From Roseivivax sp. GX 12232 (GTDB lineage Bacteria > Pseudomonadota > Alphaproteobacteria > Rhodobacterales > Rhodobacteraceae), in the NCBI RefSeq assembly GCF_021272185.1, contig NZ_JAJSEC010000004.1, forward strand, positions 124,001-188,000: a stretch of 64,000 nucleotides of DNA. Direction: 5' to 3'. Position 1 is the first letter of the stretch. Each line of letters opens with the position of its first letter. This document shows positions 7,031 through 55,377 of this stretch, piece by piece. Both the position numbers and the translations under genes were made by a program. Under the pieces are notes generated by a model. That model had not been told where the DNA came from. It did not search any database and saw nothing but the letters and a program-made list of their open reading frames with translations.

Positions 7031-7193
7031 TGCGCCCGAATAGCACCGAAGGTGCCGGGCGCGCGCCGGACCGGCCCGATGGGCCGGCGCTCCCTGGGGT
7101 GGCGTGCGCAGATCGCCGCTAGTCCTGACCTTGTTGGGATAAAGTGCGCCGATCGACTGGCAGTAGCGCCGGCCCCCGGTCCGGCGCGCGCCC
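7031..7193 (-). repeat. Dispersed structured repeat, copy 1 (reverse orientation)
   Basis: About 160 bp. Read on the minus strand, a GGGCGCGCGCCGGACCGGGG arm leads into the core CACTTTATCCC then CAAGGTCAGGACTA. The inverted arm and the terminal nested hairpin follow. The inner stem is GCACC/GGTGC with a 3-base loop (7043-7055 region). It lies in the divergent def-malY gap; the other copies start at 8991, 19857, 26468, 50814 and 55214. Confidence 0.85.
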
Positions 7194-7442
7194 TTGCTTG
7201 GGCGTTGGGCTTGTCTCGCGGCGCGGCGTTGGACGCGGGTATCCTCGGGATGGCACCTTCCGGGCTGGTGGCACGCCACTTCTCGCCACAACTGGGCGCA
7301 CGGCCTCGGGGCCCGCGGCCCGACGCGCGTCCCTCGACCCCACAGCCCACGCCCACCCCCCACCCCCCACCCCCCCCTCTTTCGCCTTGAGCCCGCCGCG
7401 CGTTCTGGCAGTCTCGCGCGGGACGCCAGCAAGGAGAACCGC

Positions 7443-8615
7443 ATGAGCTTCGACGAGATCATCGACCGGGTCGGGACCGGCTGCATGAAGTGGGACGGGA
7501 TGGAGAAGCTCTACGGCGTGTCGCCCGAGACCGGCATCGCCATGTGGGTGGCCGACATGGACTTCCGCCCGCCCGAGGGGGTGACCCGCGCGCTCCGGGG
7601 GCTCGCCGATCACGGCATCTACGGCTACCCGGGCCCCGATGAGGCCTATCGCGAGGCGATCTGCTGGTGGATGCAGACCCGCCACGGCTGGTCGATCGAG
7701 GCCGACTGGATCTTCTCGACCCACGGGCTGGTCAACGGCACCGCCATGTGCGTCGACACCTGGACCGAGCCGGGCGACGGCGTGGTGCTCTTTACCCCGG
7801 TCTACCATGCCTTCGCCAAGGTGATCCGCGCCGCGGGCCGGGAGGTGGTGGAATGCCCGCTGACCTCCGAGAACGGCCGCTACGAGATGGATTTCGACGC
7901 CTATGACGCCCAGATGACCGGGCGCGAGAAGATGGTGATCCTCTGCTCGCCGCACAATCCCGGCGGCCGCGTCTGGTCCGAGGCGGAGCTGCGCGGCGTC
8001 GCCGATTTCGCCCGGCGCCACAACCTGATCCTGGTCTCCGACGAGATCCACATGGACCTGGTGATGCCCGGCCAGCGCCACCGCGCCTTCGACACCATCG
8101 ACCACGGCATCCGCGACCGGCTGGTGATGATGACCGCGGCGACCAAGACCTTCAACATCGCCGGGGCCCATATCGGCAATGTCATCATCCCCGATCCGGC
8201 GCTGCGCTCGGCCTTCGGGGCGCGGATGGCGGCGCTCGGCATGTCGCCGGGGCTCTTCGGGCTGGAGATGGTCAAGGCCGCCTACAGCCCCGAGGGCGCG
8301 GAGTGGGTCGACGGGCTCTGCGCCTATCTCGAGGGCAACCGGCGGGTCTTCGACGCGGCGGTGGCGGAGATCCCGGGGCTCGCCTCGATGCCGCTCGAGG
8401 CGACCTACCTGGCCTGGGTGGATTTCGCCGGCACCGGCATGGCGCCGCGCGAGTTCCGCGCCCGGGTCGAGCAGGAGGCCGGGATCGCGGTGAACCACGG
8501 CGAGACCTTCGGCAGCGGCGGCGAGAGCTTCCTGCGGTTCAACCTCGCCACCCCCCGCGCGCGGGTCGAGGAGGCCGCCGAGCGGTTGGCGAAGGCCTTT
8601 GCGGACCTGCAGTAG
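7443..8615 (+). CDS. MalY/PatB-type PLP-dependent C-S lyase (cystathionine beta-lyase-like)
   Basis: A 390-residue fold-type I PLP enzyme. The N-terminal motif MWVADMDFRPP is diagnostic of the MalY/PatB branch, which cleaves the C-S bond of cystathionine or cysteine conjugates to give pyruvate, ammonia and a thiol. Other landmarks are CSPHNPGGRVW, SDEIHMDL (PLP-ring Asp) and the Schiff-base lysine Lys235 in AATKTFNIAG. The C-terminal substrate arginine region is RFNLATPR. The start at 7443 has AAGGAG at 7431-7436. It stands alone between two repeat copies, so context gives no pathway. Confidence 0.87.
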   Translation: MSFDEIIDRVGTGCMKWDGMEKLYGVSPETGIAMWVADMDFRPPEGVTRALRGLADHGIYGYPGPDEAYREAICWWMQTRHGWSIEADWIFSTHGLVNGTAMCVDTWTEPGDGVVLFTPVYHAFAKVIRAAGREVVECPLTSENGRYEMDFDAYDAQMTGREKMVILCSPHNPGGRVWSEAELRGVADFARRHNLILVSDEIHMDLVMPGQRHRAFDTIDHGIRDRLVMMTAATKTFNIAGAHIGNVIIPDPALRSAFGARMAALGMSPGLFGLEMVKAAYSPEGAEWVDGLCAYLEGNRRVFDAAVAEIPGLASMPLEATYLAWVDFAGTGMAPREFRARVEQEAGIAVNHGETFGSGGESFLRFNLATPRARVEEAAERLAKAFADLQ

Positions 8616-8990
8616 GGCGCGCGCGGAGCGGCGGTTGGCTGGAGGGCGTCGGGCGCTTAGGCGCTTCCCGGGCGCTGAGCAATGACGCGGCGCGGTCGCG
8701 CCGCGCTGAGCGGCGGTTCGGTTTGGCGCGGTCGTGTGGCCATTGCGCGGGTTTCCTGCGCAGTCGCATGGCCGCTGAGCTGGCTTCCGGCGCGGACGCG
8801 TGGCTGCCAAGCGGGGTTGCTGCGCAGTTGCCTGCCCGCCGAGGCCGAGCGTGGTTCCGACGCGGCGATCGGCGGTCCCGCGCTGTGCCCCAACCCGAGT
8901 ACCAAGAAGCGCCCCGGCCAACACCGGCGTGCCCAAGGCACCCACACGCCCATCCCGCCCTCTCAAAACGCCCCACCAGAGGGCGTGCGC
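8616..8990. other. Intergenic region with degenerate GC-rich repeats
   Basis: No credible gene. Between about 8680 and 8880 there are imperfect repetitions of segments such as GCGCAGTCGCATGGCCGC and GCGCAGTTGCC, and many short GCGC-centred inverted repeats. This looks like decayed repetitive DNA next to repeat copy 2. Confidence 0.45.
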
Positions 8991-9144
8991 CGGACCGGGG
9001 GCCGGCGCTGCTGAGGTTTGAGCGAGGCGCTTTATCCCTAAAAGGTCAGGGCTAGAGGCAAGCTAAGCGCACCACCCCAAGGAGCGCCGGCCCAAGGGGC
9101 CGGTCCGGCGCGCGCCCGGCATCTTTGATGCTATTCGGGCGCAA
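8991..9144 (+). repeat. Dispersed structured repeat, copy 2
   Basis: Left arm GGGCGTGCGCCGGACCGGGG, core GGCGCTTTATCCCTAAAAGG, right arm AGCGCCGGCCCAAGGGGCC, then the terminal hairpin with inner stem GCATC-TTT-GATGC enclosed by GCGCCCG/CGGGCGC (ends at 9144). It lies between the co-oriented C-S lyase and heparinase-like genes. Confidence 0.87.
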
Positions 9145-9402
9145 GGAGGGGCGCTTCGGGGGCAGGTGGCGCGCTATGCCAGCGCGTGCACAGGCCATCT
9201 CCGCCACTCACTTTCCTGCATCGACCGCACGGGAGCACCCACTGCGCCCCATTCACGACGCAAGCTTTCGCCCAACCCCGCACCACCAAAACCCCACCCA
9301 CGCACCACCCCCCATCCCCACCCCTTTCCCGGGTGACTTGCCCTCTCCGCGCAAGTATCACTGTCCCAACGATGCGCCGGAACGGCCGCGAGGGGCAGGA
9401 CC

Positions 9403-11175
9403 ATGTCGATGCTAGGGCCTTGGAGAACCCGGGCCACGAGCCTTCTCAACCGATACCACGCGCGGCGGGCGGCGGGCGCCCGGGGGGCGGCGGGCTTCGT
9501 CTCGCGGCCCGAGCCGCGCACCGTGGGCAGCCTGGCGCGCGGGCGGCAGCTCGCCGCCGGCAACCTGTTGTTCGCGGGCCACCTCGTCGAGGCGCCGGGC
9601 CATCTGCCCTGGGACCTGCGTGCGCCTGACGCGGCCTTCTCCGAGGAATTGCACGGCTTCGGCTGGCTCGACGATCTCGCCGCGGTGGGCGACGCCAAGG
9701 CGCGGCGCGCGGCGCAGGACTGGGTCTGGGGCTGGCAGGCGCGCTACGGGCGCGGCAGCGGGCCGGGCTGGACGCCGGACCTCGCCGGGCGGCGGATCAT
9801 TCGGCTGGTGCACCACGCGCTCTTCCTTCTTTCGGGGCGCACGCCCGAGCAAAGCGCCGCCTTCTACCGGATGCTCTCGGCCCAGGCGCGCTTCCTGTCG
9901 CGGCGCTGGCGGGCGACCGGCCCCGGCCTCGCGCGGATCGAGGCGCTGACGGGGTTTCTTTACGCCGGGCTCTCGATCGAGGGCATGGAGGCCGAGGCCG
10001 AAACCGCCCGCGCCGCACTTGCCAGGGAATGCGACACCCAGGTCGATGCGCAGGGCGGCATCGCCACCCGCAGCCCCGAGGAGCTGCTCGAGGTGCTGAC
10101 CCTGCTGACCTGGGCGCAGAGCGCGCTCTACGAGGCCGACCGCCGCGCCGGTCCCGAGATCGCCGCCGCCATCGACCGCATCGCGCCGACGCTCCGGGCG
10201 CTGCGCCATGCCGACGGCGGGCTCGCGCGCTTCCACGGTGGCGGGCGCGGGCTAGAAGGGCGGCTCGACCAGGCGCTGGCCTCGAGCGGCAGCCGCAAGC
10301 GGCGGCCCGAGGGGCTGGCCATGGGCTTCGCGCGGCTCTCGGCGGGGCGCACCAGCCTGATCCTCGACGCCGCGCCGCCGCCCGGCGGGAGGGCCTCGCT
10401 CAACGCCCATGCCTCGACACTGGCGTTCGAGCTGACCTCGGGACGGCGCCCGCTGGTGGTCAACTGCGGCTCGGGCGCGGTCTTCGGCGATGCCTGGCGC
10501 AAGGCGGGCCGTGCGACGCCCTCGCATTCGGCGCTTTGTCTCGACGGCTATTCCTCGGCCCGGCTGGGCGCGCCGGGACAGATCGGCGCGGCACAGCGCG
10601 AAAGGCTGACCGACCTGCCGCGCGAGGTCCCCGCCGAGATCAGCCGCGCGCCGGACGGGCTGAGCGTCCAGGCCGGCCACGACGGCTATGTCGCGACCCA
10701 CGGGCTGACCCATGCCAGGACGCTGGAGCTGACCTTCGACGGGCGGGCGCTGGCGGGCGAGGACATGCTTTTTGCCATCGAGCCCGCCCACAAGGCGCTT
10801 TTCGACCGGCGCATGGACGCGGTCTCGCTGGCCGGGCTGCCCTTCCAGATCCGCTTCCACCTGCACCCCGAGGTCGACGCCGAGGTCGACCTCGGCGGCA
10901 CGGCAGTCTCCATGGCGCTGCGCTCGGGCGAAATCTGGATCTTCCGCCACGACGGCAGCGCCGAGATGTCGCTCGATCCCTCGGTCTACCTGGAAAAAGG
11001 CCGTCTCAGGCCGCGTGGGGCGCAACAGATCGTTTTATCCGGCCGCGCGATGGAGTATGCGACCCGCGTCCGCTGGTCGCTGGCCAAGGCGCAGGAGACG
11101 GCAACCGCCATCCGCGACCTGGTGCGCGACGATGAGGACGACGCATCGACCGATCCAAACCAGGACTCCTCATGA
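9403..11175 (+). CDS. Heparinase II/III family protein
   Basis: A 590-residue protein of the bacterial heparinase II/III-like group: an N-terminal alpha-helical (alpha/alpha toroid-like) half, then the heparinase C-terminal beta-sheet domain. The C-terminal half includes the stretch [17 protein letters not shown] and a late conserved segment ending [20 protein letters not shown]. Characterised relatives are polysaccharide lyases, but many alphaproteobacterial members next to purH have no known substrate. There is no clear signal peptide, only a basic Arg/Ala-rich N-terminus. The stop overlaps the purH start (11172-11175), so the two are co-translated. ATG 9409 is an equally possible start. 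Confidence 0.85.
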
Positions 11176-12761
11176 CCGATCTTCATCCCGTCCGCCGCGC
11201 GCTGCTTTCCGTTTCCGACAAGACCGGCCTGATCGAGCTGGCCCAGGCGCTGGACGCGCGCGGGGTCGAGCTGGTCTCGACCGGCGGCACGGCCAGGGCG
11301 ATGCGCGAGGCCGGGCTGACGGTGCGCGACGTCTCCGAGCTGACCGGCTTCCCCGAGATGATGGACGGCCGGGTCAAGACGCTGCACCCGGCGGTGCACG
11401 GCGGGCTCCTGGCGCTGCGCGACGAGGCCAGCCACACCGACGCCATGGAGGAACACGGCATCGCCGCGATCGACCTTTTGGTGGTGAACCTCTACCCCTT
11501 CGAGGAGACCGTGGCGAAAGGCGCCGATTACGCCGAGGCGATCGAGAACATCGACATCGGCGGCCCGGCGATGATCCGCGCGGCGGCCAAGAACCACGGC
11601 TTCGTCAATGTCGTCGTCGACACCGAGGATTACCCCGCCCTGCTCGAGGAGCTGGAAGCCAATGGCGGGCAGACCTCCTATGCCTTCCGCCAGCGGCTGG
11701 CGCTGACCGCCTATGCGCGCACCGGGGCCTATGACGCCGCCGTCTCGGGCTGGATGGCGCAGGCGCTCGGCGAAAGCGCGCCGCGCCGCCGCGTGGTCGC
11801 GGGCAAGCTCGCCCAGACCCTGCGCTACGGCGAGAACCCGCACCAGTCGGCGGCCTTCTACACCGACGGCAGCGCGGCCAGCGGCGTGGCCACCGCCCGC
11901 CAGCACCAGGGCAAGGAGCTGTCCTACAACAACATCAACGACACCGACGCGGCCTTCGAGCTGGTCAGCGAGTTCGCCCCCGAGGACGGCCCGGCCTGCG
12001 CGATCATCAAGCACGCCAACCCCTGCGGCGTGGCCCGCGGCGCCAGCCTGAAGGACGCCTATGCCCGCGCCTTCGACTGCGACCGGACCTCGGCCTTCGG
12101 CGGCATCGTGGCGCTGAACCAGCCGCTCGACGGCGAGACCGCCCGCGCCATCGCCGAGATCTTCACCGAGGTGGTGATCGCTCCCGGCGCCGACGAGGCC
12201 GCCCGCGAGGTCTTCGCGGCCAAGAAGAACCTGCGGCTCCTGACCACCGACGGGCTGTCGGACCCCGAGGCCGTGGGCCTCACCCTGCGGCAGGTCGCCG
12301 GCGGCTTCCTCGTACAGGACCGCGACAACGGCCGCCTCGGCGAATGGGAGCTGAAATGCGTGACCAAGCGCCAGCCCACCGCCGACGAGATGCGCGACAT
12401 GCTCTTTGCCTGGCAGGTCGCCAAGCACGTGAAGTCCAACGCCATCGTCTACGTCAAGGACGGCGCCACCGTGGGCGTCGGCGCGGGCCAGATGAGCCGG
12501 GTCGATTCGACCCGCATCGCCGCGCGCAAGAGCCAGGACATGGCCGAGGCGCTGGGCCTCTCGGCGCCGTTGACGCAAGGCTCCGTGGTGGCCTCGGACG
12601 CCTTCTTCCCCTTCCCCGACGGCCTTCTGAGCGCCGCCGAGGCGGGCGCGACCGCGGTGATCCAGCCCGGCGGCTCGATGCGCGACGACAAGGTCATCGA
12701 GGCCGCCGACGAGGCCGGGCTCGCCATGGTCTTCACCGGCATGCGGCACTTCCGGCATTGA
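11172..12761 (+). CDS. purH: Bifunctional AICAR formyltransferase / IMP cyclohydrolase
   Basis: Catalyses the last two steps of de novo IMP synthesis. The 529 residues contain the N-terminal methylglyoxal-synthase-like cyclohydrolase domain ([42 protein letters not shown]). The C-terminal transformylase domain follows, with the catalytic Lys-His in [11 protein letters not shown] and the conserved [10 protein letters not shown] and [14 protein letters not shown] segments. Length matches the family. It overlaps the heparinase-like gene by 4 bp and is followed 25 bp later by lspA. Confidence 0.98.
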
Positions 12762-12786
12762 GCCGGAAAGCACGGAGGCAGGCGCG

Positions 12787-13305
12787 ATGAAACTCCTGGG
12801 ACTCGTGGCGACGCTGACGCTGATCCTCGACCAGCTGTCGAAATGGCTGGTCGTGCACGTGATGAGCCTGGCGCAGAAGGGCGAGATCGCGGTCTTCCCG
12901 CCGTTCCTGCAGTTCCGCATGGCCTGGAACTACGGCATCAACTTCGGGCTCCTGTCGGGCGAACGCGACGCCACGCGCTGGGTGCTGATCGCCGTGGCGG
13001 TGGGCATCGTGCTCCTGGTGCTGGGCTGGCTCCGGCGCGACCCGCCGGGGCGGCTGGGATTCGTCTCGGCGGGGCTTCTGATCGGCGGCGCGGTCGGCAA
13101 TGTGATCGACCGCATCCTCTACGGGGCGGTCGCGGACTTCCTGAACATGTCCTGCTGCGGCATCGACAATCCCTTCGCCTTCAACGTCGCCGACATCGCG
13201 ATCTTCGCGGGCGCCATCGGGCTCGTGCTCTTCTCGGGGCAGGGCGAGGACGCCAAGAGCGCGGAAGACGGCGGCTCCGGGAGCAGTGGGAAAAACGGCT
13301 CGTGA
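12787..13305 (+). CDS. lspA: Lipoprotein signal peptidase (signal peptidase II)
   Basis: An inner-membrane aspartyl protease that cleaves the signal peptide of diacylglyceryl-modified prolipoproteins. It has 172 residues, four predicted membrane segments and the catalytic Asp pair in [18 protein letters not shown] and FNVADIAIF. The C-terminus is a short Gly/Ser/Glu-rich tail. A GGAGG ribosome-binding site is at 12774-12778. The next gene is itself a lipoprotein, a substrate for this enzyme. Confidence 0.97.
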
Positions 13306-13355
13306 CCTTGCCCTCCTCTTGGGCTAATCAGGGGCGAGTGAGACGGAGGTGGTCC

Positions 13356-19701: not shown

Positions 19702-19856
19702 GGGAGGCGGTTCGGCTTTGGGGTCGGAGGGCGTAGGGGGCGGTCGGCTTTGCGCTGATTGTGGGCCCACGCGAACGGCGCAAACGCGCGACCCATCCGG
19801 CATCATCCCCGAAGCGCGGGACGCGCCCCCGCCACCCTCTCACCCCTTGCAACAGA

Positions 19857-20020
19857 GGGGGCGCGCCGGACCGGGGGCCGGCGCTGCTGCCCTCTGGGCG
19901 GGGCGCTTTATCCCGGCAAGGTCATTGCTCACTGTGAGCTACGCGCGCCATCCCAAGGAGCGCCGGCCCAAGGGGCCGGTCCGGCGCGCGCCCGGCATCT
20001 TCGATGCTGTTCGGGCGCAA
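19857..20020 (+). repeat. Dispersed structured repeat, copy 3
   Basis: Left arm GGGGGCGCGCCGGACCGGGG, core GGCGCTTTATCCCGGCAAGG, right arm AGCGCCGGCCCAAGGGGCC, terminal hairpin with inner stem GCATC-TTC-GATGC inside GCGCCCG/CGGGCGC. It fills most of the 350-bp gap between the convergent slt and DMT exporter genes. The remaining gap (19702-19856, 20021-20051) shows no gene. Confidence 0.88.
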
Positions 20021-26400: not shown

Positions 26401-26467
26401 CGCTGGCTGGGGGCGGGCGCCTTGGCGCTGCCACCCCGACACCTCCCCCTCGGATAAGCGGGGCCAA

Positions 26468-26627
26468 GGCGCGCGGCGGACCGGGGGCCGGCGCTGCCCG
26501 GTTTGAGCGGCGGCGCTTTATCGTGGTCGCATGCCTCCAACAGATGGGCGGCGCGCGCCGGTGACGGAGCGCCGGACCGCCGGGCCGGTCCGTCGCGCGC
26601 CCTGCGCCTGCGGCGCGTACCGGGCGC
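26468..26627 (+). repeat. Dispersed structured repeat, copy 4 (divergent)
   Basis: A decayed or divergent copy: left arm GCGCGCGGCGGACCGGGGGC, core GGCGGCGCTTTATCGTGG, right arm GAGCGCCGGACCGCCGGGCC. The terminal hairpin has outer stem GCGCCC/GGGCGC and inner stem GCGCC-TGC-GGCGC. The primary sequence differs from the other copies but the pairing is kept. It lies between convergent genes; the rest of the 366-bp gap (26401-26766) shows nothing else. Confidence 0.72.
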
Positions 26628-26766
26628 CTGGGGTGTTTTTAGGCGGTCGCGGTTGAGTGAGACGGTGTTGCGCTTTTGGCGCTCGGGCGGTTCCAAGCCC
26701 ACCGACAGACTGTCCGTCCCGCCCGCCTTAATCCAATCGACGACTTCCGCCCGCGCCACAGCGCCT

Positions 26767-40181: not shown

Positions 40182-40317
40182 GCGGCGGGATTTGCGGGGA
40201 CGGTGACGAGCGCCGGAGTTTGCCCGCGGGCAGGTCGGGCCAAGCGGTCTCAGTCAAACAGGCGACCTAGTCGAACCCGTCAGTCAGATTTTCCAACGGT
40301 GCGACCGCCTCCAAGCG

Positions 40318-46430: not shown

Positions 46431-48590
46431 TCAGTTCCCGAAGAGGTCGCGCAGCACCTGGTTGATCACCGCGCCCACCGGGTCCTGCGGACGCTGGCGT
46501 TGCGGCTGCTGCTGGCGCTGGGGCTGCTGCTGCACCTGCGGCTCGGGTCGGTCGGGCACCGTCATCGGCAGCTCGCGCACCGGCAGGCCCTCGTGCACGC
46601 GGGCCATGGTCTCCTGCCAGATCTCCGCCGGCAGACCGCCGCCGGTCACCCCGGTCAGCGGCGTGTTGTCGTCATAGCCCATCCAGACGCCGGCCACGTA
46701 GTCGGCGCTGAAGCCCACGAACCAGGCGTCGCGCTGCTCGTTCGAGGTGCCGGTCTTACCCGCCGCGGGCCGGCCGATCTGCGCCCGTCCGCCGGTGCCT
46801 TCGGAGATCACCTTCTCCATCATGAAGACCAGCTGCTGCGCCGCCTCCTTCTGGATCACCCGCTCGCCGATGCCGCCCTGGCTGTCGAGCAGCGCCTCGT
46901 CGTCGCCCTGGTAGCGCAGCTGGCTGACGCCATAGGGCTTCACCGAGGAGCCGCCGTTCAGGATGCCCGCATAGGCGCCGGTCATCTCCAGAAGCGAGGC
47001 CTCGGAGACGCCAAGCGCCAGCGAGGGCGTGTCGATCAAGCGCGAATCGATGCCGAAGTCGCTGGCCACCTGGCGCACCAGGTCGCGGCCGACGCTTTCG
47101 GAGATCTTGATCGCCGGGATGTTGCGCGACTGTTTCAGCGCCTCGGCCAGGGTCATCCGCCCGGCGTAGTCGCGGCTGTAGTTCTTCGGGCACCATTCCC
47201 CGGAGCCGGGGATGTTCATGCAGAAGGGCTCGTCGACCACGGTGTCATAAGGCGAATAGCCCAGTTCGAGCGCGGTGGCATAGACGAAGGGCTTGAAGGC
47301 CGAGCCGGTCTGCCGCTTGGCCTGGGTGGCGCGGTTGAAGACGCCCGAGACGCCGGTCTTGCGGCCGCCGACCATGGCGCGCACCGCCCCGTCCGAGGAC
47401 ATGACCACGATCGCCGCCTGGGCGTCCGAACCCTCGCGGACCTTCTCCTCGAAGATCTTGTTCATCGCCGCCTCTGCGGCGTTCTGCAGCCGCGGGTCGA
47501 GCGTTGTGGTGATCTCCACGTCCTCACGCGAGGAGACATCGGCGAAGGGCGGCAGCGTGTCCATGATCCAGTCGGCGAAATAGCCGCCGTCGCGGCGCTC
47601 GGCCGCCTGCGACAGGGTGGCGGGATTGGCCCGCGCGCTTTTGGCCTCGGCGGAGGTCAGGTAGCCCTGTTCCTCCATCAGCCCGATGACCACCTCGGCG
47701 CGGTTCTGGCTCCGCGCCAGGTCGTTGGTCGGCGCCAGCACCGAGGGCGCGGTCAGCAGCCCCGCGAGCATGGCCGCCTCGGAGGGTTCGACCAGCGCGG
47801 CGGGCTTGGAGAAATAGCGCTGCGAGGCGGCCTCGGCGCCATAGGCGCCGCCGCCCATGTAGGCGCGGTTGAGGTAGATCGAGAGGATCTCGTCCTTGCT
47901 GTACTTGGCCTCCATGGCGAGCGCGTAGATCGCCTCACGGGCCTTCCGCGCGATCGAGGTCTCGCGGCAGTCGTCGATGTAATCGGCCTCGGTCTCCCAG
48001 ACCGACTTGTCGTAGGTCACCCCGAGGCAGAGCAGCTTGGCGGTCTGCTGGGTGATGGTCGAGCCGCCGTGGCCCTGCAGCGGCCCGCGCCCCTCGCGCA
48101 GGTTGATGCGGATCGCCGAAGCGATGCCGCGCGGCGAGACGCCGAGGTGCCAGTAGAAGCGCTTGTCCTCGGTGGCGATGACCGCGTGCTTGAGATGGCG
48201 CGAGACGCTCTCGGCGGTGACCACGCCGCCGAACTGGTCGCCGCGCCAGGCGTAGACGTCGCCGTTGCGGTCATAAAGCGTCACCGAGCCCTTGGCGCGC
48301 CCGTCGAGCAGCGTCTCGGCGGCGGGCAGGGTGGTATAGGTGTAGCCGACCCAGGCCGCGACCAGGATGCCCGCGACCAGCGCCACCCGCGAGGTGACCA
48401 GCCAGATTACCCGCAGGACCATGCGAACGAGGCCCGAGACCAGCGCAACGATCGGGTTGCGGCGGCGTCGCGGCGCCGCTCGGCGCCGCTTCTGCGGTTG
48501 GGGTTTGCGCGACTGGGGCTTCTTGGCCTTTGCCGCCGAATACCGACGGTCCGCGACCAGCCGGTTCTTACCTTTTCGTGAATCGCTCAT
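46431..48590 (-). CDS. Penicillin-binding protein 1A family (bifunctional class A PBP)
   Basis: A 719-residue inner-membrane peptidoglycan synthase. A highly basic cytosolic N-terminus (KKPQSRKPQPQKRRRAAPRRR) precedes one membrane helix. The GT51 glycosyltransferase domain has ATEDKRFYWHLGVSPRG and GGSTITQQTAKLL. The transpeptidase domain has SxxK as TGSAFKPF, SxN as SRN and KTG as GKTGTS. The C-terminus is a Gln/Pro/Arg-rich tail (QVQQQPQRQQQPQRQRPQD), unusual in being so repetitive. The start at 48590 (MSDSRKGKN) was chosen as the first Met before the basic region. Confidence 0.93.
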   Translation of the reverse strand: MSDSRKGKNRLVADRRYSAAKAKKPQSRKPQPQKRRRAAPRRRRNPIVALVSGLVRMVLRVIWLVTSRVALVAGILVAAWVGYTYTTLPAAETLLDGRAKGSVTLYDRNGDVYAWRGDQFGGVVTAESVSRHLKHAVIATEDKRFYWHLGVSPRGIASAIRINLREGRGPLQGHGGSTITQQTAKLLCLGVTYDKSVWETEADYIDDCRETSIARKAREAIYALAMEAKYSKDEILSIYLNRAYMGGGAYGAEAASQRYFSKPAALVEPSEAAMLAGLLTAPSVLAPTNDLARSQNRAEVVIGLMEEQGYLTSAEAKSARANPATLSQAAERRDGGYFADWIMDTLPPFADVSSREDVEITTTLDPRLQNAAEAAMNKIFEEKVREGSDAQAAIVVMSSDGAVRAMVGGRKTGVSGVFNRATQAKRQTGSAFKPFVYATALELGYSPYDTVVDEPFCMNIPGSGEWCPKNYSRDYAGRMTLAEALKQSRNIPAIKISESVGRDLVRQVASDFGIDSRLIDTPSLALGVSEASLLEMTGAYAGILNGGSSVKPYGVSQLRYQGDDEALLDSQGGIGERVIQKEAAQQLVFMMEKVISEGTGGRAQIGRPAAGKTGTSNEQRDAWFVGFSADYVAGVWMGYDDNTPLTGVTGGGLPAEIWQETMARVHEGLPVRELPMTVPDRPEPQVQQQPQRQQQPQRQRPQDPVGAVINQVLRDLFGN

Positions 48591-48844
48591 CCGTCCTGCC
48601 CGGCGCCTCGGGTGTTTTGCGAGACAATAGTCATTCGCGGCCCGGATGTGCACCAAGCCGCGCGCAAATCCGCGTATTCTTTCCGATCAAAAAACAGGCA
48701 AAAATCCCCTACCGCCTAATTATTGTGCATATAGCCCGCGGAATCCGCCTCCCGCCCGGCGCAAACCTTCCCCAAAGGGCCTCCGGCTTTCTTTGTTTTC
48801 CCTGCGAATTGCAGGTCCGGCCTGCCAAACCGAAAGGGACCAAG
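48591..48844. promoter_or_regulatory. PBP1A / glnK divergent control region
   Basis: A 254-bp AT-rich gap (for example AAAAAACAGGCAAAAATCC and CCTAATTATTGTGCATATAG). An imperfect half-site GTGCACCAA near 48647 resembles the left half of an NtrC site, but no convincing right half or sigma-54 -24/-12 element was found. The nitrogen control expected for glnK-amtB is therefore not demonstrated. Confidence 0.4.
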
Positions 48845-49183
48845 GTGAAACTCATCATTGCGACGATCAAGCCGTTCAAGCTCGAGGAGGTGCGCGAGGC
48901 GCTCACCTCCATCGGCGTGCGCGGCATGATGGTGACCGAGATCAAGGGCTTCGGATCGCAGTCCGGGCACACCGAAATCTACCGCGGTGCGGAATACGCC
49001 GTGAACTTCGTGCCGAAAATCAAACTCGAGATCGTTGTGGCCGAATCCATGGCCGAACAGGTCATCGACACGATCGGTTCCACCGCAAAGACCGGGAAAA
49101 TCGGCGACGGCAAGATTTTTGTCCTCGACGTGGGCCAGGCGATCCGCGTGCGGACCGGCGAGACCGACGCGGACGCCCTTTAA
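48845..49183 (+). CDS. glnK: Nitrogen regulatory protein PII (GlnK)
   Basis: A 112-residue trimeric PII signal protein that senses 2-oxoglutarate and ATP/ADP and gates the ammonium channel. The T-loop includes the uridylylation residue Tyr51 in YRGAEY; TGKIGDGKIFV and the C-terminal RVRTGETDADAL complete the signature. It starts with GTG at 48845, with AAAGGG upstream. It is called glnK rather than glnB because amtB follows 43 bp downstream. Confidence 0.95.
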   Translation: MKLIIATIKPFKLEEVREALTSIGVRGMMVTEIKGFGSQSGHTEIYRGAEYAVNFVPKIKLEIVVAESMAEQVIDTIGSTAKTGKIGDGKIFVLDVGQAIRVRTGETDADAL

Positions 49184-49226
49184 GGGCGCGCGGACCGAGA
49201 ACAAGATCACAAAGGGAAACGGATAC

Positions 49227-50546
49227 ATGAAACTTCTCAAGACACTTGCCCCGGCTGTCGCGCTTGCCGCGCTGCCGTCGCTGGGTCTGGCCCAGGAGGC
49301 CGAGGCGGCCCCGGACGTGAACCCCTATATCTTCACCACCCTGCTGTTCCTGATCGGCGGCTTCCTGGTGTTCTGGATGGCGGCGGGCTTCGCCATGCTC
49401 GAGGCCGGCCTTGTGCGCTCCAAGAACGTCACCATGCAGCTGACCAAGAACATCTCGCTCTTCTCGATCGCGGCGATCATGTACTGGCTGGTGGGCTTCA
49501 ACCTGATGTATCCGGGCGACGGCTGGACCATCCCGGGCTACCTCGGGATCCTGATCTCGCCGACCTCGCTCGAGCCCGTGGGCCTCGCGGCCGGGGATGC
49601 GGCGCTGGATTACGCTTCGGTCGGATCGGACTTCTTCTTCCAGCTGATGTTCTGCGCCACCACCGCCTCGATCGTCTCGGGCACCCTGGCCGAGCGCATC
49701 AAGCTCTGGCCCTTCCTGATCTTCGTGGTCGTGCTGACCGGCTTCATCTACCCGATCGAGGCCTCCTGGCAGTGGGGCGGCGGCTGGCTCTCCGAGATGG
49801 GCTTTGCCGATTTCGCCGGCTCGACCCTGGTGCATGCCGCGGGCGGCTGGGCTGCTCTGGCGGGCGCGCTGATCCTCGGGCCGCGCATCGGCAAGTACAA
49901 GGATGGCCGCACCGTGCCGATGCCGGGTTCGAACCTGGCGCTGGCGACGCTCGGCACCTTCATCCTTTGGCTCGGCTGGTTCGGCTTCAACGGCGGCTCG
50001 CAGCTGGCCATGGGCACCGTGGGTGACGTGACCGACGTGAGCCGGATCTTCGCCAACACCAACATGGCGGCGGCGGCCGGCGCGGTTGCGGCGCTGCTGC
50101 TCAGCCAGGCGCTCTACAAGAAGCCGGACCTCACCATGACGCTGAACGGCGCGCTCGCGGGCCTGGTGTCGATCACCGCGGAGCCGCTGGCGCCGACGCT
50201 CTTCGGCGCGCTCTGGATCGGCGCGATCGGCGGCATCATCGTGGTCGTGACCGTCCCGCTGCTCGACAAGCTGAAGATCGACGACGTGGTCGGCGCCATC
50301 CCGGTGCACCTCGTGGCCGGTATCTGGGGCACGCTGGCGGTGCCGTTCTACAACGGCGACGCCTCGTTCGGCACGCAGATCGTCGGCATCGTGGCGATCG
50401 GCCTCTTCACTTTCGTGGTCTCGGCCGTGGTCTGGATGGTGCTCAAGGCGCTCTTCGGGATCCGCGTCTCCGAGGAGGACGAGATCAACGGTCTCGACAT
50501 GGCCGAGCTCGGCATGGAGGCCTACCCGGAGTTCTCCAAGGGCTGA
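49227..50546 (+). CDS. amtB: Ammonium transporter
   Basis: A 439-residue inner-membrane channel with a cleavable signal peptide (MKLLKTLAPAVALAALPSLGLAQ) and eleven membrane helices. The twin pore histidines lie in STLVHAAGGWAAL and AIPVHLVAGIWGT; the FFFQLMFCATTASIVSG segment lines the outer vestibule. GlnK docks on its cytosolic face. The two genes form a canonical glnK-amtB operon closed by a strong terminator. Confidence 0.97.
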   Translation: MKLLKTLAPAVALAALPSLGLAQEAEAAPDVNPYIFTTLLFLIGGFLVFWMAAGFAMLEAGLVRSKNVTMQLTKNISLFSIAAIMYWLVGFNLMYPGDGWTIPGYLGILISPTSLEPVGLAAGDAALDYASVGSDFFFQLMFCATTASIVSGTLAERIKLWPFLIFVVVLTGFIYPIEASWQWGGGWLSEMGFADFAGSTLVHAAGGWAALAGALILGPRIGKYKDGRTVPMPGSNLALATLGTFILWLGWFGFNGGSQLAMGTVGDVTDVSRIFANTNMAAAAGAVAALLLSQALYKKPDLTMTLNGALAGLVSITAEPLAPTLFGALWIGAIGGIIVVVTVPLLDKLKIDDVVGAIPVHLVAGIWGTLAVPFYNGDASFGTQIVGIVAIGLFTFVVSAVVWMVLKALFGIRVSEEDEINGLDMAELGMEAYPEFSKG

Positions 50547-50572
50547 CCGGAGGGGCTACGGCTTGACGGAAG

Positions 50573-50605
50573 AAACCCGGGCGATGCGTCGCCCGGGTTT
50601 TTTTG
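50573..50605 (+). terminator. Intrinsic terminator of glnK-amtB
   Basis: A perfect 12-bp stem AAACCCGGGCGA (50573-50584) with TCGCCCGGGTTT (50589-50600), loop TGCG, followed by further T residues. Confidence 0.93.
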
Positions 50606-50813
50606 TGTGTGGGGGTGTTGTGGCGGGTTTCGGGTGAGGTTGGCTTCAGGTGGGATTGCGGTGAACGAGGCCTCGGGTCGGTCAGTGCCCTGCACCGCAG
50701 TGCAACGCAGGCCAAAGCAGGCAGGATGCCGGTTTGGTTCGGGAGATCAAACCTCGGAGCGGCGCGGGGACGAGGTGCCCCGCCAAATGGCGGACCCCGA
50801 CGGCCTGAAGCGA
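50606..50813. other. Intergenic DNA between amtB terminator and repeat copy 5
   Basis: A stretch of about 200 bp with no credible gene and no recognised motif, beginning with a GT-rich run after the terminator. Together with the repeat copy it makes up the 495-bp convergent amtB-rlmN gap. Confidence 0.4.
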
Positions 50814-50977
50814 GGGCGCGCGCCGGACCGGGGGCCGGCGCTGCTGACCTCGGAGCGAGGCGCTTTATCCCGGCAAGGTCAGGACTAACGACGATCTATG
50901 CGCTTCGCCCACAAGAGCGCCGGCCCAAGGGGCCGGTCCGGCGCGCGCCCGGCACCTTCGGTGCTATTCGGGCGCAA
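50814..50977 (+). repeat. Dispersed structured repeat, copy 5
   Basis: Left arm GGGCGCGCGCCGGACCGGGG, core GGCGCTTTATCCCGGCAAGG, right arm AGCGCCGGCCCAAGGGGCC, terminal hairpin with inner stem GCACC-TTC-GGTGC inside GCGCCCG/CGGGCGC. It lies between convergent amtB and rlmN. Confidence 0.88.
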
Positions 50978-51041
50978 GTCAGGCGTGGCAGTAAGATGAC
51001 GGTGCGCACAACCCGCGCACCAACCTCACACCCCAGCACCC

Positions 51042-52220
51042 TCACCCGCGCGCCGCTTCCGCCTCGATCTCGCGGCGCGACTTGCGCGCGCGCTCCGTCG
51101 CGGACTTCAGCTGCCCGCAGGCGGCCATGATGTCCTCGCCGCGCGGGGTGCGGATCGGGGAGGCGTAGCCGGCCTTGTAGATGATGTCCGCGAAGGCCTG
51201 GATCCGGCTCCAGTCGGAGCGCTCGTAGGGCGCGCCGGGCCATTCGTTGAAGGGGATCAGGTTGATCTTCGCGGGGATCCCCGAGATCAGCTTCACCAGC
51301 CGCCGCGCGTCGGCGTCGCTGTCGTTCACATCCTTCAGCATCACGTATTCGAAGGTGATCCGCTCGGAGTTCGACAGCCGCGGATATTCCTTCAGCGCCG
51401 CCAGCAGCGTCTCGATGTTCCAGCGCTTGTTGATCGGCACCAGCTTGTCGCGCACCTCGTCGGTGGTGGCGTGGAAGGACACCGCCATCTGGCAGCCGAT
51501 CTCCTCGGCGCAGCGGGCGATCTCGGGCACCACGCCCGAGGTCGAGAGCGTGATCCGCCGGCGCGAGAGCGCGATGCCCTCGCCGTCCATGGCGATCTTC
51601 ATCGCGTCGCGCACATTGTCGAAGTTGTAGAGCGGCTCGCCCATGCCCATCAGCACGATGTTCGACAGCAGCCGCGTCTCGTTCCGGGGCGCGCGCTGCT
51701 CGGGCCATTCGCCAAGGTCGTCGCGGGCCACCATGACCTGGCCGATGATCTCGCCGGCGGTCAGGTTGCGCACCAGCTTCTGGGTGCCGGTGTGGCAGAA
51801 GGAGCAGGTCAGCGTGCAGCCCACCTGGCTCGAGACACAGAGCGTGCCGCGGTCCTCCTCGGGGATGTAGACCACCTCGACCTCGTGGCCGCCGGCGATC
51901 TTCACCAGGTATTTCCGGGTGCCGTCCATGGAGACGTTCTTCGAGACGACCTCGGGCAGGCGGATGACGAAATGCTCCGCGAGCAGGCGGCGGTAGTCCT
52001 TCGACAGGTTGGTCATCGCGTCGAAGTCGCGCACGCCCCAGTGATAGAGCCAGGCCCAGACCTGGTTGACGCGCATCTTGGCCTGTTTCTCGGGCGTGCC
52101 GATGGCCAGGAGCGCCTCGCGCAGCGCGTCCCGGGTCAGCCCGATGATATTGGTCGGCCCGTCCTCCGCCTTGCGGGGGATGGTCACAAGATCCTGCGTG
52201 ATCGGTGCGTTGGCGGTCAT
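51042..52220 (-). CDS. rlmN: 23S rRNA (A2503-C2) / tRNA (A37-C2) methyltransferase RlmN
   Basis: A 392-residue radical-SAM methyltransferase. The 4Fe-4S cluster cysteines are in [27 protein letters not shown] is the SAM-contacting motif; the C-terminal methyl-carrier Cys is in IMAACGQL. It methylates the peptidyl-transferase centre A2503 and tRNA A37. The start at 52220 (MTANAPITQ) fits family length; the frame is open to 52517 without coding support. Confidence 0.97.
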
Positions 52221-52580
52221 CTCACTCGGCTCTTCGTCGGAAAGTGGGTCCCATATAGGGATTCGGCGGCAAATCCAAAACATTTCCCGCGGGAGATTCG
52301 ATCCGCGCGGGCGGAAGGGCGCAGGCGGGAGAGGGGTCTTGGCGGGCCGCGCCGGGGCGTTCGGGCAGAGGGCGCGGGGCGAAGCAGGGCAGGCCCTTCG
52401 GCGCGGTTGTCGCAGAAACGGACCTGTATACCGGACTGAGTGAACCATGGCGGGGGCGGCTATCCTTAACCATGATGGACGCGTGGATTGAGCGGCGGCG
52501 GTATTCGCCGGGACCAAGGGCGCCGCTTCGGCCTACGCCTCACAGCGGCTCGCCACTCACCCGCCTCACGCCCTCCAAAA
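52221..52580. other. rlmN upstream region
   Basis: 360 bp without a gene. It contains CCTGTATACCGG at 52423-52434, sharing the 10-base core ACCTGTATAC with the perfect palindrome at 53099. Otherwise it is GC-rich with no identified promoter. Confidence 0.45.
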
Positions 52581-52612
52581 ATCAAAAAAAAATGCGCTCC
52601 GAAGAGCGCATT
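52581..52612 (-). terminator. Intrinsic terminator of the orphan 119-residue gene
   Basis: On the minus strand, AATGCGCTC, loop TTCG, GAGCGCATT and then nine T in total. The UUCG-type tetraloop and long U-tract make this the clearest terminator of its strand in the window. Confidence 0.93.
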
Positions 52613-52666
52613 GGGCAGTCATCCCATAGGCAGAAAACAAGAGTGTTGAATAGGGCAAGAATGGTG

Positions 52667-53026
52667 TCAGGCAGTGGCGCGGCGTCCTCCTCTTTCGGCG
52701 CGATGCATCAGCGTCGCGAGGTTCAGCGTGGTGACGATCAGCTTCTTGCGAAGCTCGCCGGGGCGAAGGCTGGTGGGCGCGGGCACGCCGACCAGGAGGC
52801 GCGTGGTGCGCGGGGGCAGGCAGGGGGCATATTGCACCACGATGGTGACCCAGGCCTCGACGCGGCCGAAGTCGCGTTCGCGATGGACGTTGGTGATCCA
52901 GCTGCGGATCACGCGGGGGCCGTCCTGGCGGGCCTGGTAGCGACCGTCGCGCAGCCGCGCGCCGGGTTGCGGAAGCCGGACGATGGCGGGTCGTGCATTC
53001 AGAAACGCGTCATGCTGCTCGATCAT
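52667..53026 (-). CDS. Hypothetical protein, 119 residues
   Basis: I do not recognise this protein. Codons are strongly G/C-ending across the whole frame, a GAGGCG-like ribosome-binding site precedes ATG 53026, and a strong terminator follows 55 bp after the stop, so it is a real gene. It is soluble and basic, without membrane segment or signal peptide. The middle contains SWITNVHRERDFGRVEAWVTI and the end LRKKLIVTTLNLATLMHRAERGG. It is a single-gene unit between ialB and rlmN, with a 16-bp perfect palindrome 73 bp upstream. A mobile or regulatory origin is possible but unproven. Confidence 0.7.
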   Translation of the reverse strand: MIEQHDAFLNARPAIVRLPQPGARLRDGRYQARQDGPRVIRSWITNVHRERDFGRVEAWVTIVVQYAPCLPPRTTRLLVGVPAPTSLRPGELRKKLIVTTLNLATLMHRAERGGRRATA

Positions 53027-53098
53027 GATGGTCGCCTCATTTACGGTGTCGCGGTGTCTTCTGCGCGCCGGCGGGAGGGTGCGCCCGCCTTTGCTCTG

Positions 53099-53114
53099 CA
53101 CCTGTATACAGGTG
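53099..53114. promoter_or_regulatory. 16-bp perfect palindrome upstream of the orphan gene
   Basis: CACCTGTATACAGGTG is a perfect palindrome in an AT-richer patch. The inner TGTATACA resembles FCD-type GntR operators, and it also contains a -10-like TATACA. It is probably the operator or promoter of the gene at 52667-53026. No regulator gene is adjacent. Confidence 0.6.
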
Positions 53115-53278
53115 TTTTGCAGTCGAATTGTGGCAGGAATAAGGCAGGCGACCAGAATTTGTCACAAACGCCGCTTTTCTCCGCGGCCCGCGAACAAGGC
53201 GGGGCGGAGCACAGGGGGCCGGAAGCGGCGGGAAAGGCCCCGGGCGGCGCGCTCAGGCGCGGGCCCGGGCGACAGGGA

Positions 53279-53806
53279 TCAGCTCGTGCAGCGGCGCTCG
53301 GCGTCCTCCACGGCAGCGGTGAAGCCCAGGAGCGAGAAGGTGTCCTTGGTGGTGGTGCCCCGGCTCGAGCGCGCGGTCAGCACCGCGTCGGCGCCGCGCT
53401 TCATCGCGGTCACGATCTTGGCGTCGTCCTGCGGCGTCGCCGGCCAGGCCCATTCGCCCTCGGTGAAAAGCTCGAACTCGGTGCCGCTGATGTTCACGTT
53501 GACCGTGGAGCCGTCCGCGAAGGGATAGCCGCCGGTGAAGGCGACCTGGCCCGCGACATTGGCGCCGGGGCGGAAGAAGACCATCAGGAGGATCTCGCCG
53601 CGGGTCACCGCCACGACGCGGCCGTCGCGGGTGTTCACGCTTTCCTTGTAGGTCGTCACCGCCCAGCACTCCCGCGGGTCGGATCCTTCGAAGACCGACC
53701 AGTCGGTCATCGCATCGACGCGGTTTGTGCTTTCGTCCTGTGCGAGCGCAGCGCCGCCCCATGCCAGGAAAAGTGCCGCGAGCCCGCTCCCGATCACCGC
53801 TTTCAT
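53279..53806 (-). CDS. Invasion-associated locus B (IalB) family protein
   Basis: A 175-residue exported protein with signal peptide MKAVIGSGLAALFLAWGGAALA. The mature part matches the IalB family: TDWSVFEGSDPRECWAVTTYKE, then MVFFRPGANVAGQVAFTGGYPF and a closing FSLLGFTAAVEDAERRC with a C-terminal Cys pairing partner for Cys in RECW. IalB was named for erythrocyte invasion in Bartonella but is widespread in free-living alphaproteobacteria, where its role is unknown. The usual Rhodobacterales order places it close to rlmN. Confidence 0.85.
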   Translation of the reverse strand: MKAVIGSGLAALFLAWGGAALAQDESTNRVDAMTDWSVFEGSDPRECWAVTTYKESVNTRDGRVVAVTRGEILLMVFFRPGANVAGQVAFTGGYPFADGSTVNVNISGTEFELFTEGEWAWPATPQDDAKIVTAMKRGADAVLTARSSRGTTTKDTFSLLGFTAAVEDAERRCTS

Positions 53807-53973
53807 TGCCTGAGCCTCCAGTGAACCTGACCCTCAAAAGCTCGGGTTGCGTTGTCTCCGCCCCGGTTTATCTTGCCGGCTGAGACCCGAGTTCGGACCG
53901 GACATTAGCCCGAAGTCGCGGCTGCCGAAAAGCCCTCTCGGCAGAATATCGCCAATACGTGAGGAGCCTTTGT

Positions 53974-54975
53974 ATGTGCGCCCAACCTGCCCGCCTGTGT
54001 GAAGTCTGGCGAGGACCGATCGCCGAATCCGTGCACCTCGGACATATCGCCGTCGCGGGCCCCGACGGGGCTGTCGAGGCGGCCTGGGGCGACCCCGAGG
54101 CGATGATTCTGCCGCGCTCCTCGGCGAAGATGATCCAGGCCCTGCCGCTGGTCGCCTCGGGCGCCGCCGAAGCCCATGGGCTGACCGACCGGCACCTGGC
54201 GCTGGCCTGCGCCAGCCACCAGGGCGCGGCCCTGCACGTCGAGGCGGTCGGCGCCTGGCTCGAGGCGCTGGGGCTCGGCGACGCGGCGCTGCGCTGTGGG
54301 CCGCAGCCCTCGCGCGACAAGGCGCTCCGCCACGAGATGCTCTGCGCCGGGACGGCGCCCGGGCAGGTGCACAACAACTGCTCGGGCAAGCACGCGGGTT
54401 TCCTTACGCTGAACGCGCAGTTAGGCGGAAGCCCCGAGTATCACGAGCCTGACCACCCGGTGCAGGCCGCCGCGCGCGAGGCCTTCGAGCTGGTCACCGA
54501 CCGGGTGAGCCCGGGCTACGGCATCGACGGCTGTTCGGCGCCGAACCATGCGACCACCATGGGCGCCATGGCCCGCGCGATGTCCTGGTTCGCCACCGCC
54601 GAGCGCCGCGAGGACACGCTGTCGCGCGCCGCCGCCCGGCTGACCCGGGCGATGATCGCTCATCCCGAGCTGGTCGCGGGCGAGGGCCGGGCCTGCACGC
54701 TCCTGATGCGCGCGGCCAAGGAGCCGGTGGCGCTGAAGACCGGGGCCGAGGGCTATTTCGTCGCGATCCTGCCCGCCCGCGGCAAGGGCATTGCGGTCAA
54801 GGCGCTGGACGGCGCGACGCGGGCCGCGGAATGCGCCGTGGCGGCGGTGCTGGCGCGGATGGACGTGCTCGACACCGCGCATCCCGACGTGGCGCGCTTC
54901 CTGACGCCCGAGATCACCAACTGGCGCGGCGTGAAGACCGGCGCGATCCGCCCCGCCGCGCCGCTGGCGGTGTGA
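53974..54975 (+). CDS. Rhizobium-type (class 3, ReAV-like) L-asparaginase
   Basis: A 333-residue asparaginase II family protein (PF06089 type), unrelated to E. coli AnsA/AnsB. The residues described for Rhizobium etli ReAV are present: the Ser-Lys tandem in PRSSAKMIQ (Ser49, Lys52), Ser in ACASHQGAA, and the zinc ligands Cys and Lys in NNCSGKHAGF and Cys in GIDGCSAPNHA. It hydrolyses asparagine to aspartate and ammonia. The start at 53974 follows GAGGAG at 53961-53966; the GTG at 53959 precedes it and is unlikely. Confidence 0.92.
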   Translation: MCAQPARLCEVWRGPIAESVHLGHIAVAGPDGAVEAAWGDPEAMILPRSSAKMIQALPLVASGAAEAHGLTDRHLALACASHQGAALHVEAVGAWLEALGLGDAALRCGPQPSRDKALRHEMLCAGTAPGQVHNNCSGKHAGFLTLNAQLGGSPEYHEPDHPVQAAAREAFELVTDRVSPGYGIDGCSAPNHATTMGAMARAMSWFATAERREDTLSRAAARLTRAMIAHPELVAGEGRACTLLMRAAKEPVALKTGAEGYFVAILPARGKGIAVKALDGATRAAECAVAAVLARMDVLDTAHPDVARFLTPEITNWRGVKTGAIRPAAPLAV

Positions 54976-55213
54976 GGGGGACTTGGGTTTGGGCTTGGGC
55001 TTGGGCGTTTTCCGCCGGTGGTGTGAGTGGCTTGGGCGTTTGAGCGGGCTTTGCGAGGGCTTGGAGGGCGCGGTGAGGACTTGAGCTCAGCGGCTCGAAT
55101 TGACGTCACCGGGTAGACCTTGGCGCCCCTTGCCCTGCGCGCATCCAACACGCGCCAACCAAAATGCAAAACGCGCCAATCGATATGTGCACCCAGACAA
55201 ACCAAAACGCTCC
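54976..55213. other. Intergenic DNA downstream of the asparaginase gene
   Basis: No gene. The first 80 bases are G/T-rich with several TTGGGCTTGGGC-like short direct repeats; the rest is lower in GC than usual. It leads into repeat copy 6. Confidence 0.45.
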
Positions 55214-55377
55214 TTGCGCCCGAATAGCATCGAAGATGCCGGGCGCGCGCCGGACCGGCCCCTTGGGCCGGCGCTCCTTGGGATGGCGCGCTCAGCATGC
55301 CCCTAGCCCTGACCTTGCTGCCATAAAGCGCCTCGCTCAGAGGGCAGCAGCGCCGGCCCCCGGTCCGGCGCGCGCCC
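55214..55377 (-). repeat. Dispersed structured repeat, copy 6 (reverse orientation)
   Basis: On the minus strand: GGGCGCGCGCCGGACCGGGG arm, core GAGGCGCTTTATGGCAGC then CAAGGTCAGGGCTAG, inverted arm, and terminal hairpin with inner stem GCATC-TTC-GATGC. It lies between convergent asparaginase and serB. Confidence 0.87.

Follow-up and report, generated by a model that had tools for sequence, protein, structure and literature searches.

A dispersed intergenic repeat with covarying stems in Roseivivax sp. GX 12232 and other Rhodobacteraceae

Six copies in one stretch of the genome

The stretch of DNA considered here, which we call the window, is the 64,000 nucleotides at positions 124,001 to 188,000 of contig NZ_JAJSEC010000004.1 (hereafter C33) in the 4.12 Mb genome of Roseivivax sp. 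GX 12232, and our subject is a dispersed repeat of about 165 bp found in its intergenic regions. An earlier note on the window had described six copies, and all are present in their places and on their strands, with one correction at the edges: the copy it had called 8991 begins about 12 bases earlier, and the other places hold. Copy 1 (7031..7195, minus strand) lies between divergent peptide deformylase and aminotransferase genes, and copy 2 (8979..9143, plus) between codirectional aminotransferase and heparinase-like genes. Convergent genes flank copy 3 (19855..20019, plus; SLT-domain and EamA), copy 4 (26465..26628, plus; metallo-beta-lactamase-fold and GntR) and copy 5 (50812..50976, plus; ammonium transporter and RlmN-like), and copy 6 (55215..55379, minus) is 3' of the L-asparaginase II gene in a region that is convergent by gene calls, making four of the six copies convergent. 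All six are full length. A covariance model of the family built from 57 copies (R2), whose alignment includes three of the six, recovers them all with E values from 4e-25 to 2e-16, at 130.5, 131.4, 124.7, 94.9, 140.9 and 128.5 bits in the order given. Upstream of copy 6 is a degenerate partial copy (55400..55518, minus; model positions about 21-130), found by nhmmer at C33:179411-179518, which is 55411-55518 of the window, and by a covariance model from 21 copies (R1) at 55400-55497 with E=0.005. A chance origin of the repeat was rejected: with up to two mismatches allowed, the 16-base core of the arm occurs seven times in the window (six exact, one with two mismatches) against 1.27 expected, and none of 100 shuffles of the window reached that count.

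Read in its own orientation, each unit has two arms, the left one reading GGGCGCGCGCCGGACCGGGGGCCGGCGC in this genome and the right one containing a small additional bulge, with about 75 bases of loop between them. A terminal hairpin follows the right arm; it comprises an inner stem, a loop of three bases and an internal loop that is asymmetric. The terminal inverted repeats expected of a miniature inverted-repeat transposable element (MITE) are present as these long pairing arms. In copy 3, all on the plus strand, the left arm is the 5' strand of the long stem at 19857..19884, its first four bases, GGGG, taking the place of the GGGC that is one of two competitors for the middle strand (see below); the loop motif CTTTAT falls at 19906..19911; the right arm, the 3' strand of the long stem, runs from 19960..19993 and ends in GCCC, the contested strand; and the terminal hairpin occupies 19990..20016, with outer GCCC/GGGC, inner GCATC/GATGC and the asymmetric internal loop. 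Many copies also have a weak CCCTCT...AGAGGG hairpin on the left side, and in a profile of conservation at the edges, from which one of 74 copies was left out for lack of an anchor, conservation drops at the AGAGGG side on the left and past GGGCGCAAG on the right.

The core that the earlier note had read as CTTTATC is CTTTAT in all six window copies; the final C holds in five, the copy at 55215 reading CTTTATG. The loop usually also carries CAAGGTCA, which the note had assigned to most copies: it is exact in four of the six, is replaced by AAAGGTCA in the copy at 8979 and is absent from the copy at 26465. Across the family, TTTAT is found in 53 of 57 copies (89 of 96 in the own genome) and the full CTTTAT in 42 of 57, so that the invariant loop motif is TTTAT. 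The three states that had been noted for the inner stem were seen again, with GCATC/GATGC in three copies, GCACC/GGTGC in two and GCGCC/GGCGC in one. The copy at 26465, which lacks CAAGGTCA, belongs to a diverged subfamily in this genome (C33:150462, the same copy, together with C22:204873 and C22:205207) and has loop-end and right-arm variants in common with copies in Roseivivax sediminis, a species that carries diverged copies.

No T-run follows the hairpin, the consensus there being GCAAG and then G-rich, and an intrinsic terminator was rejected on this ground. Copy-specific extension of the stems into the flanks was likewise rejected for the own genome, where complementarity over 0-60 bases is 15.1 for own and 15.4 for swapped flanks; elsewhere it is weakly positive (p=0.015 in the genome we label G192, p=0.026 in other genera). 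A further inverted repeat outside the core, like TTGGCCTGGAGCGGACGTTGGCA / TGCCAACGTCCGCTCCAGGCCAA, was observed in a subfamily of G192 (L177-L196) and in another genus (L152). Extra terminal hairpins, lone or in tandem and similar to repetitive extragenic palindromic (REP) sequences, stand beside some copies (L025, C1:673520, C1:850884, C33:262819, C33:351603).

Copy number, range and genomic placement

The count of six proved far too low for the family as a whole, as one arm, with up to three mismatches allowed, matches the own genome 235 times (a reversed-pattern control, three times). A sequence profile run over 1.19 Mb of the 4.12 Mb, sampled as stretches on contigs C33, C22 and C1, gave 83 separate hits, of which 74 are full length. 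Hits of one element on its reverse strand, due to the palindrome, were set aside here and in the R1 search of the window. The covariance-model search of relatives that the earlier note had suggested was run and gave matches across the Rhodobacteraceae. Within the genus, R1 matched seven of nine genomes, with at least 150, 62, 28, 26, 4, 4, 2, 0 and 0 matches, some of which may count the same palindrome on its reverse strand. With one genome taken per genus and the own genome included, at least 114 of 295 Rhodobacteraceae genomes matched R1 and at least 22 of 41 matched R2; G192 alone has at least 105 matches, some being reverse-strand hits of the palindrome. In samples of the whole class, R1 matched at least one of 240 genomes, namely our own, and R2 matched two of 41, both in the Rhodobacteraceae, leaving none among the 39 genomes from outside the family. 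At least two other Rhodobacteraceae genomes in the 240-genome sample had no R1 match, and one of these (G218) is matched by R2. The candidates scored per genome were limited to 150 in the nine genomes of the genus and in G192, nine in the 295-genome search, 12 in the 240-genome search and 70 in the R2 samples, and the counts are lower bounds. A species-specific repeat was rejected, as copies occur across the genus and the family.

Copies are also carried by plasmids of several genera, among them Salipiger, Pacificitalea and Pseudosulfitobacter, and, in the form of short partial matches only, Leisingera, Sulfitobacter and Ruegeria; these hits arose from copies of other genera, and a window copy used as query matched no plasmid record. 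A window copy had no match in INPHARED, IMG/VR contained neither of two exact arm patterns taken from other lineages, and a phage origin is rejected as far as these two collections go. In keeping with the earlier note, which knew of no named family that fits, Rfam 15 has no match at the repeat: at the gathering threshold it finds in the window only a serC leader (RF00517; 59055-59106, plus strand, 72 bits), away from the repeat, and for seven loci of other genera it finds nothing at the repeat even at E values up to 1. No description of the family was met in the literature searched by title and abstract, a search outside which most subscription journals lie, and none is given in the portions available of PMC3733652, PMC8632094, PMC2267715, PMC2864571 and PMC5082802.

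We considered the placement of the copies using gene calls with a codon-position filter, checked on pyrG and cutA. None of the 74 full-length copies in the sampled part of the own genome falls inside a gene call. The 58 copy-bearing regions comprise 22 convergent, 27 codirectional and 9 divergent ones, against 104, 246 and 134 in a background of 484 intergenic regions longer than 100 bases, an excess of convergent regions (p=0.004) and a deficit of divergent ones (p=0.04). There is no recurrent flanking gene: when 79 loci of other genera were compared with the proteins from 29% of the own genome, no protein was hit by more than four loci. Within that scope a cis-regulatory RNA tied to one gene finds no support, no common neighbour having turned up across genera. 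The exception within the genus is pyrG, which a copy adjoins in five species (L098, L100, L107, L119 and C22:320280), in two of them in the opposite orientation, with cutA on the far side of the copy wherever cutA was found (the own genome, L100 and L107); a hotspot, inversion and long residence are the open alternatives for this arrangement.

In the own genome 57 of the 74 copies, and 42 of 59 clusters (p=0.0015), lie on the strand of negative GC skew. Contig C33 by itself has no strand bias (10 of 22 clusters on the plus strand), and in G192 the preference is less clear (46 of 75, p=0.064; skew was sampled, and rows were picked by hand among the matches listed). The flanks of the 74 copies are themselves skewed in all four gene arrangements: within 60 bases the left side is rich in C and the right in G, and at 120-320 bases the left is rich in G/T and the right in C/A, with a C-G skew of about 0.2 either way. 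In regions free of the element the skew is weaker and follows gene orientation (C-G within 0.09, A-T up to -0.18), and in other genera the flank skew is weaker and has no A-T part. The sign of the outer flanks would be in keeping with breaks at the element followed by resection that leaves 3' single strands exposed.

Pairing, exchange and decay

The evidence for a fold comes from an alignment, A6, of 57 copies from 51 genomes in 48 genera. In the long stem taken together with the inner hairpin, the paired share of cells is 94.3% (81.3 when shuffled), 21 of 30 pairs have changes on both sides (12.9 in shuffles), and the covariation score is 0.315 (0.089 shuffled; at most 0.057 with partners slid), each of these three values being reached in 0 of 500 shuffles. 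Absence of covariation in a wider alignment, which the earlier note had named as a finding that could refute it, was not what we saw. The terminal hairpin with its outer stem scores 0.265 (0.104 shuffled; slid maximum 0.094), again unreached in 500 shuffles. The copies of other genera had been gathered by a structure-aware model, which favours paired copies. The 96 copies of the own genome were gathered by sequence alone; in these, 383 of 384 cells of the inner hairpin are paired, with C-G/T-A and A-T/G-C exchanges at two pairs, and the key inner pair is C-G in 61 copies and T-A in 34, with one exception. These alignments show that the pairing is maintained across the family.

Columns 147-150 of A6 can pair with either columns 3-6 or columns 178-181, and the three strands change together: GGGC/GCCC/GGGC is found in 29 of the 57 copies, GCGC/GCGC/GCGC in 8 and GTGC/GCAC/GTGC in 2. 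The other triples are GTGC/GCGC/GCGC in 2, a gapped GGGC/GCCC in 2, and 14 that occur once each, several of which contain mismatches or are misaligned. The end of the long stem and the outer stem of the terminal hairpin thus compete for one middle strand, a competition that predicts two exclusive folds. The comparison of G.U with A.C on the top strand, by which the working strand might be told, is inconsistent between the two collections, standing at 41 to 15 across genera and at 11 to 12 in the arms of the own genome. The earlier note had taken compensatory change to argue for selection on a folded RNA or single-stranded DNA; the pairing is kept, and such selection may be its cause; exchange between copies is visible, and mutation templated by the hairpin is a further possibility.

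No two of the 96 own copies are identical. Mean pairwise identity is 0.958 in the arms, 0.928 in the terminal hairpin and 0.736 in the loop. For whole copies of the three contigs, the diverged ones left out, it is 0.855, and for tandem pairs 0.862; tandem copies are no closer to each other than random copies. Linkage of variable sites, taken over 93 of the 96 copies with three diverged ones left out, falls from 0.45 between neighbours through 0.17-0.18 at intermediate distances to 0.15, the shuffled level, beyond 40 bases, and two long-range values of 0.71 are probably due to single rare alleles. The hairpin pair stands at 0.98, against a mean V of 0.25 for site pairs 4-8 bases apart. Tandem copies are common and have the same direction throughout (15 multi-copy clusters, none mixed). 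Six tandem pairs, at C1:485193, 551578, 759460 and 850549 and at C22:288125 and 339912, have a homologous spacer of about 150 bases, and therefore the dimer itself was multiplied. Loop identity among these dimers is 0.758 for left with left, 0.719 for right with right and 0.742 for left with right (background 0.725), so the loops do not track position within the dimer, and partial sharing inside one dimer resembles a conversion tract. These patterns suggest that copies swap short segments, by which the loops would be reassorted, or that the loops are saturated, with the arms held alike by exchange or by selection.

Plasmids of two strains of Pseudosulfitobacter pseudonitzschiae, SM26-46 and SC33-90 (with SC1-67 compared at one locus), allow the fate of single copies to be followed. 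Six places hold an element in both strains. At two of them it is intact in both, the arms almost unchanged and the loops diverged; at the other four it is damaged in one strain, the damage being an interruption or an internal deletion or, in two cases, a cut with fusion to an inverted segment from a copy of the second type. At SM26-46 40243, where both flanks match, the inner stem is GGTGC/GCACC in one strain and GGCTC/GAGCC in the other, two pairs having changed on both sides. At SM26-46 15380, the SC33-90 copy matches another SM26-46 copy, that at 60329, in its left flank and its hairpin allele, so a recombination junction lies at the element. Three further places are unmatched; they fall in rearranged parts of the plasmids, which there do not align or have different neighbouring genes. 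For one such place (SC33-90 47020-47202) the sequences become homologous again about 20 bases past the element, and the genes on the other side differ. Decay of copies, and recombination with breakpoints at copies, are thus seen between the strains. As side observations, element places on these plasmids adjoin toxin-antitoxin modules (RelBE, HipA) which vary from strain to strain, and plasmid alignment blocks stop at or near elements (L244, L247, L248 in both cases).

Candidate explanations and known systems

We favour, with a probability that we put at a little under one half (about 0.48), a dispersed repeat, about 165 bp long, old and non-autonomous, that is spread through the Rhodobacteraceae and works via a folded single strand. 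The long fold would be an imperfect hairpin of 26 pairs enclosing the loop with its conserved TTTAT, and the outer stem of the 3' terminal hairpin would reuse the strand of the last four or so long-stem pairs, making the two ends mutually exclusive. Copies may have been spread by an enzyme acting in trans on the folded form, in the manner of MITEs or REPs, with most present-day copies probably immobile. Ectopic exchange, possibly begun by breaks at the palindrome, would keep arms and hairpin alike within a genome, and between genera they would nevertheless drift. A mobile element of this kind explains the dispersal, the uneven copy number, the tandem dimers and the family-wide range.

Several observations weigh against it. 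Comparison of own with swapped flank k-mers in sets of 74, 21 and 46 copies gave no convincing signal of target-site duplication, and a simple MITE with target duplication was rejected on that comparison; the only strong k-mer signal is an internal GGGC direct repeat at both ends, and uncertainty about where exactly the element ends weakens the test. A search for the Y1 transposase (PF01797) found none in the own genome, with 5 of 14 control genomes positive, and the 83 hits in the sampled 1.19 Mb include no widely separated left and right ends of a parent transposon, other transposase families not having been searched. No clean insertion between strains was seen among the plasmid places compared. 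The double hairpin change at 40243 is not evidence for conversion, because the SC33-90 allele is absent from the other copies searched. Free movement accounts less well than long residence or a hotspot for a pyrG-adjacent copy in five species; the flanks in the own genome lack copy-specific complementarity; and arms so strictly conserved once inserted could be under selection locus by locus. The excess of G.U across genera, which would point to RNA, may in part come from the model-based collection, since it is absent from the arms of the copies collected by sequence. A bolder version, a structured and bistable element of RNA or single-stranded DNA resembling a short interspersed nuclear element (SINE), ancestral to the Rhodobacteraceae, needing both partly exclusive folds for its cycle, spreading in trans via the folded form and kept uniform by exchange between copies, strikes us as improbable; if true, it would be a mobile structured nucleic acid that is neither REP-associated, a classical MITE nor an intron.

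The repeat might instead be useful to the host as an RNA element at transcript 3' ends, where the fold would block 3' exonucleases, aid Rho-dependent termination or set mRNA ends under selection at each locus. The excess of convergent and deficit of divergent regions point this way, as do the nearly fixed arms beside diverged loops at plasmid places shared by the strains, the paired changes at the locus with matching flanks, the 41 to 15 excess of G.U, and the near flanks, whose composition would mean that C-rich RNA approaches from either side. We nonetheless think this unlikely, as it leaves unexplained why match counts within one genus span 0 to at least 150, and a fold alone does not require identical arm sequence at more than 200 places; in addition, the hairpin has no T-run after it, 9 of the 58 regions are divergent, G.U has no excess over A.C in the own-genome arms, and at four of the six plasmid places common to both strains, one strain has a broken copy. 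Nor need there be any present selected function, if template switching perfects the hairpins and other copies supply the template when breaks at the palindrome are mended, so that apparent covariation is concerted change. Such upkeep by mutation accords with the recombination junctions at copies between two strains, the possible conversion tract within a dimer, double hairpin changes with hardly any unpaired intermediate among the 96 own copies, and the outer flank skew, whose sign is what resection would be expected to leave, although that skew is open to other explanations and in other genera is weaker and without its A-T part. TTTAT, unpaired in the model, is nevertheless kept in 53 of the 57 copies from 51 genomes, and correction of one arm by the other does not by itself predict the triple changes through which long stem and terminal hairpin both stay pairable, and we regard this explanation as unlikely, slightly more so than the host RNA. 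Membership in the system of REPs and their associated tyrosine transposases (RAYT), or among the CGTC-tagged relatives in alphaproteobacteria, would draw on the terminal hairpin, an imperfect palindrome with a REP-like asymmetric internal loop, and on the lone or tandem hairpins near some copies. It is very improbable and was rejected on length (165 bp against 20-40 bp), on the conserved edge GGGCGCAAG, which has no GTAG or CGTC tag, and on the lack of a Y1 transposase in the own genome. The mobile dispersed repeat that we favour, the host RNA and the mutational upkeep can each hold in part.

About half of the sampled genera (at least 22 of 41) in a major, largely marine family carry this repeat, and a single genome may have as many as tens or hundreds of such intergenic sites; the repeat is neither in Rfam 15 nor in the literature searched. 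Because one genome can hold many copies that pair alike and differ in the loop, the repeat is a natural experiment in which selection on the fold can be set against exchange and against hairpin-templated mutation. A covariance model would let annotators mark the sites, and promoter, terminator and small-RNA calls in the Rhodobacteraceae need checking against the repeat.

Bacterial MITEs, such as the Correia-, ERIC- and RUP-like elements, are short, non-coding and intergenic, have long inverted arms and number tens to hundreds of copies, with copy number uneven between related species. The present repeat is like them in each of these respects. It differs in that neither a target-site duplication nor, in the part of the genome sampled, a parent transposon was found, in its nearly invariant arms beside a free loop within one genome, in covariation across genera, and in a third strand that would compete with the arms.

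With REPs it shares an intergenic, folding character and a terminal hairpin that is an imperfect palindrome, to go by the accessible part of PMC3733652; by the same source, the CGTC-tagged REPs are common in alphaproteobacteria, apparently without a dedicated transposase, and occur mainly as head-to-head dimers. Our repeat is far longer, has no GTAG or CGTC tag, and in 15 of 15 clusters has its tandem copies in the same orientation. In Bradyrhizobium, Br-REP1 and Br-REP2, at about 200 and at least 50 intergenic sites, were found as stem-loops of 3' untranslated regions, according to the part of PMC5082802 available. The consensus GGCTCTT-CGAGCC printed there for Br-REP2, with its hyphen removed, also occurs in Pseudosulfitobacter, where it forms the inner stem and loop in one of the terminal hairpins, and these 13 common bases may be chance; both are short hairpins of another bacterial order, for which the same part of that source gives no long stem, TTTAT loop or three-strand switch. 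The RNA motifs HRC-8-4 and uORFC-8-2 (PMC8632094) and SAM/SAH (PMC2864571), as far as the available text of those papers goes, are structured and limited to the Rhodobacterales, as is the repeat, and belong mainly to one gene context each (cco, cysS and metK); the repeat, unlike them, is dispersed over many loci.

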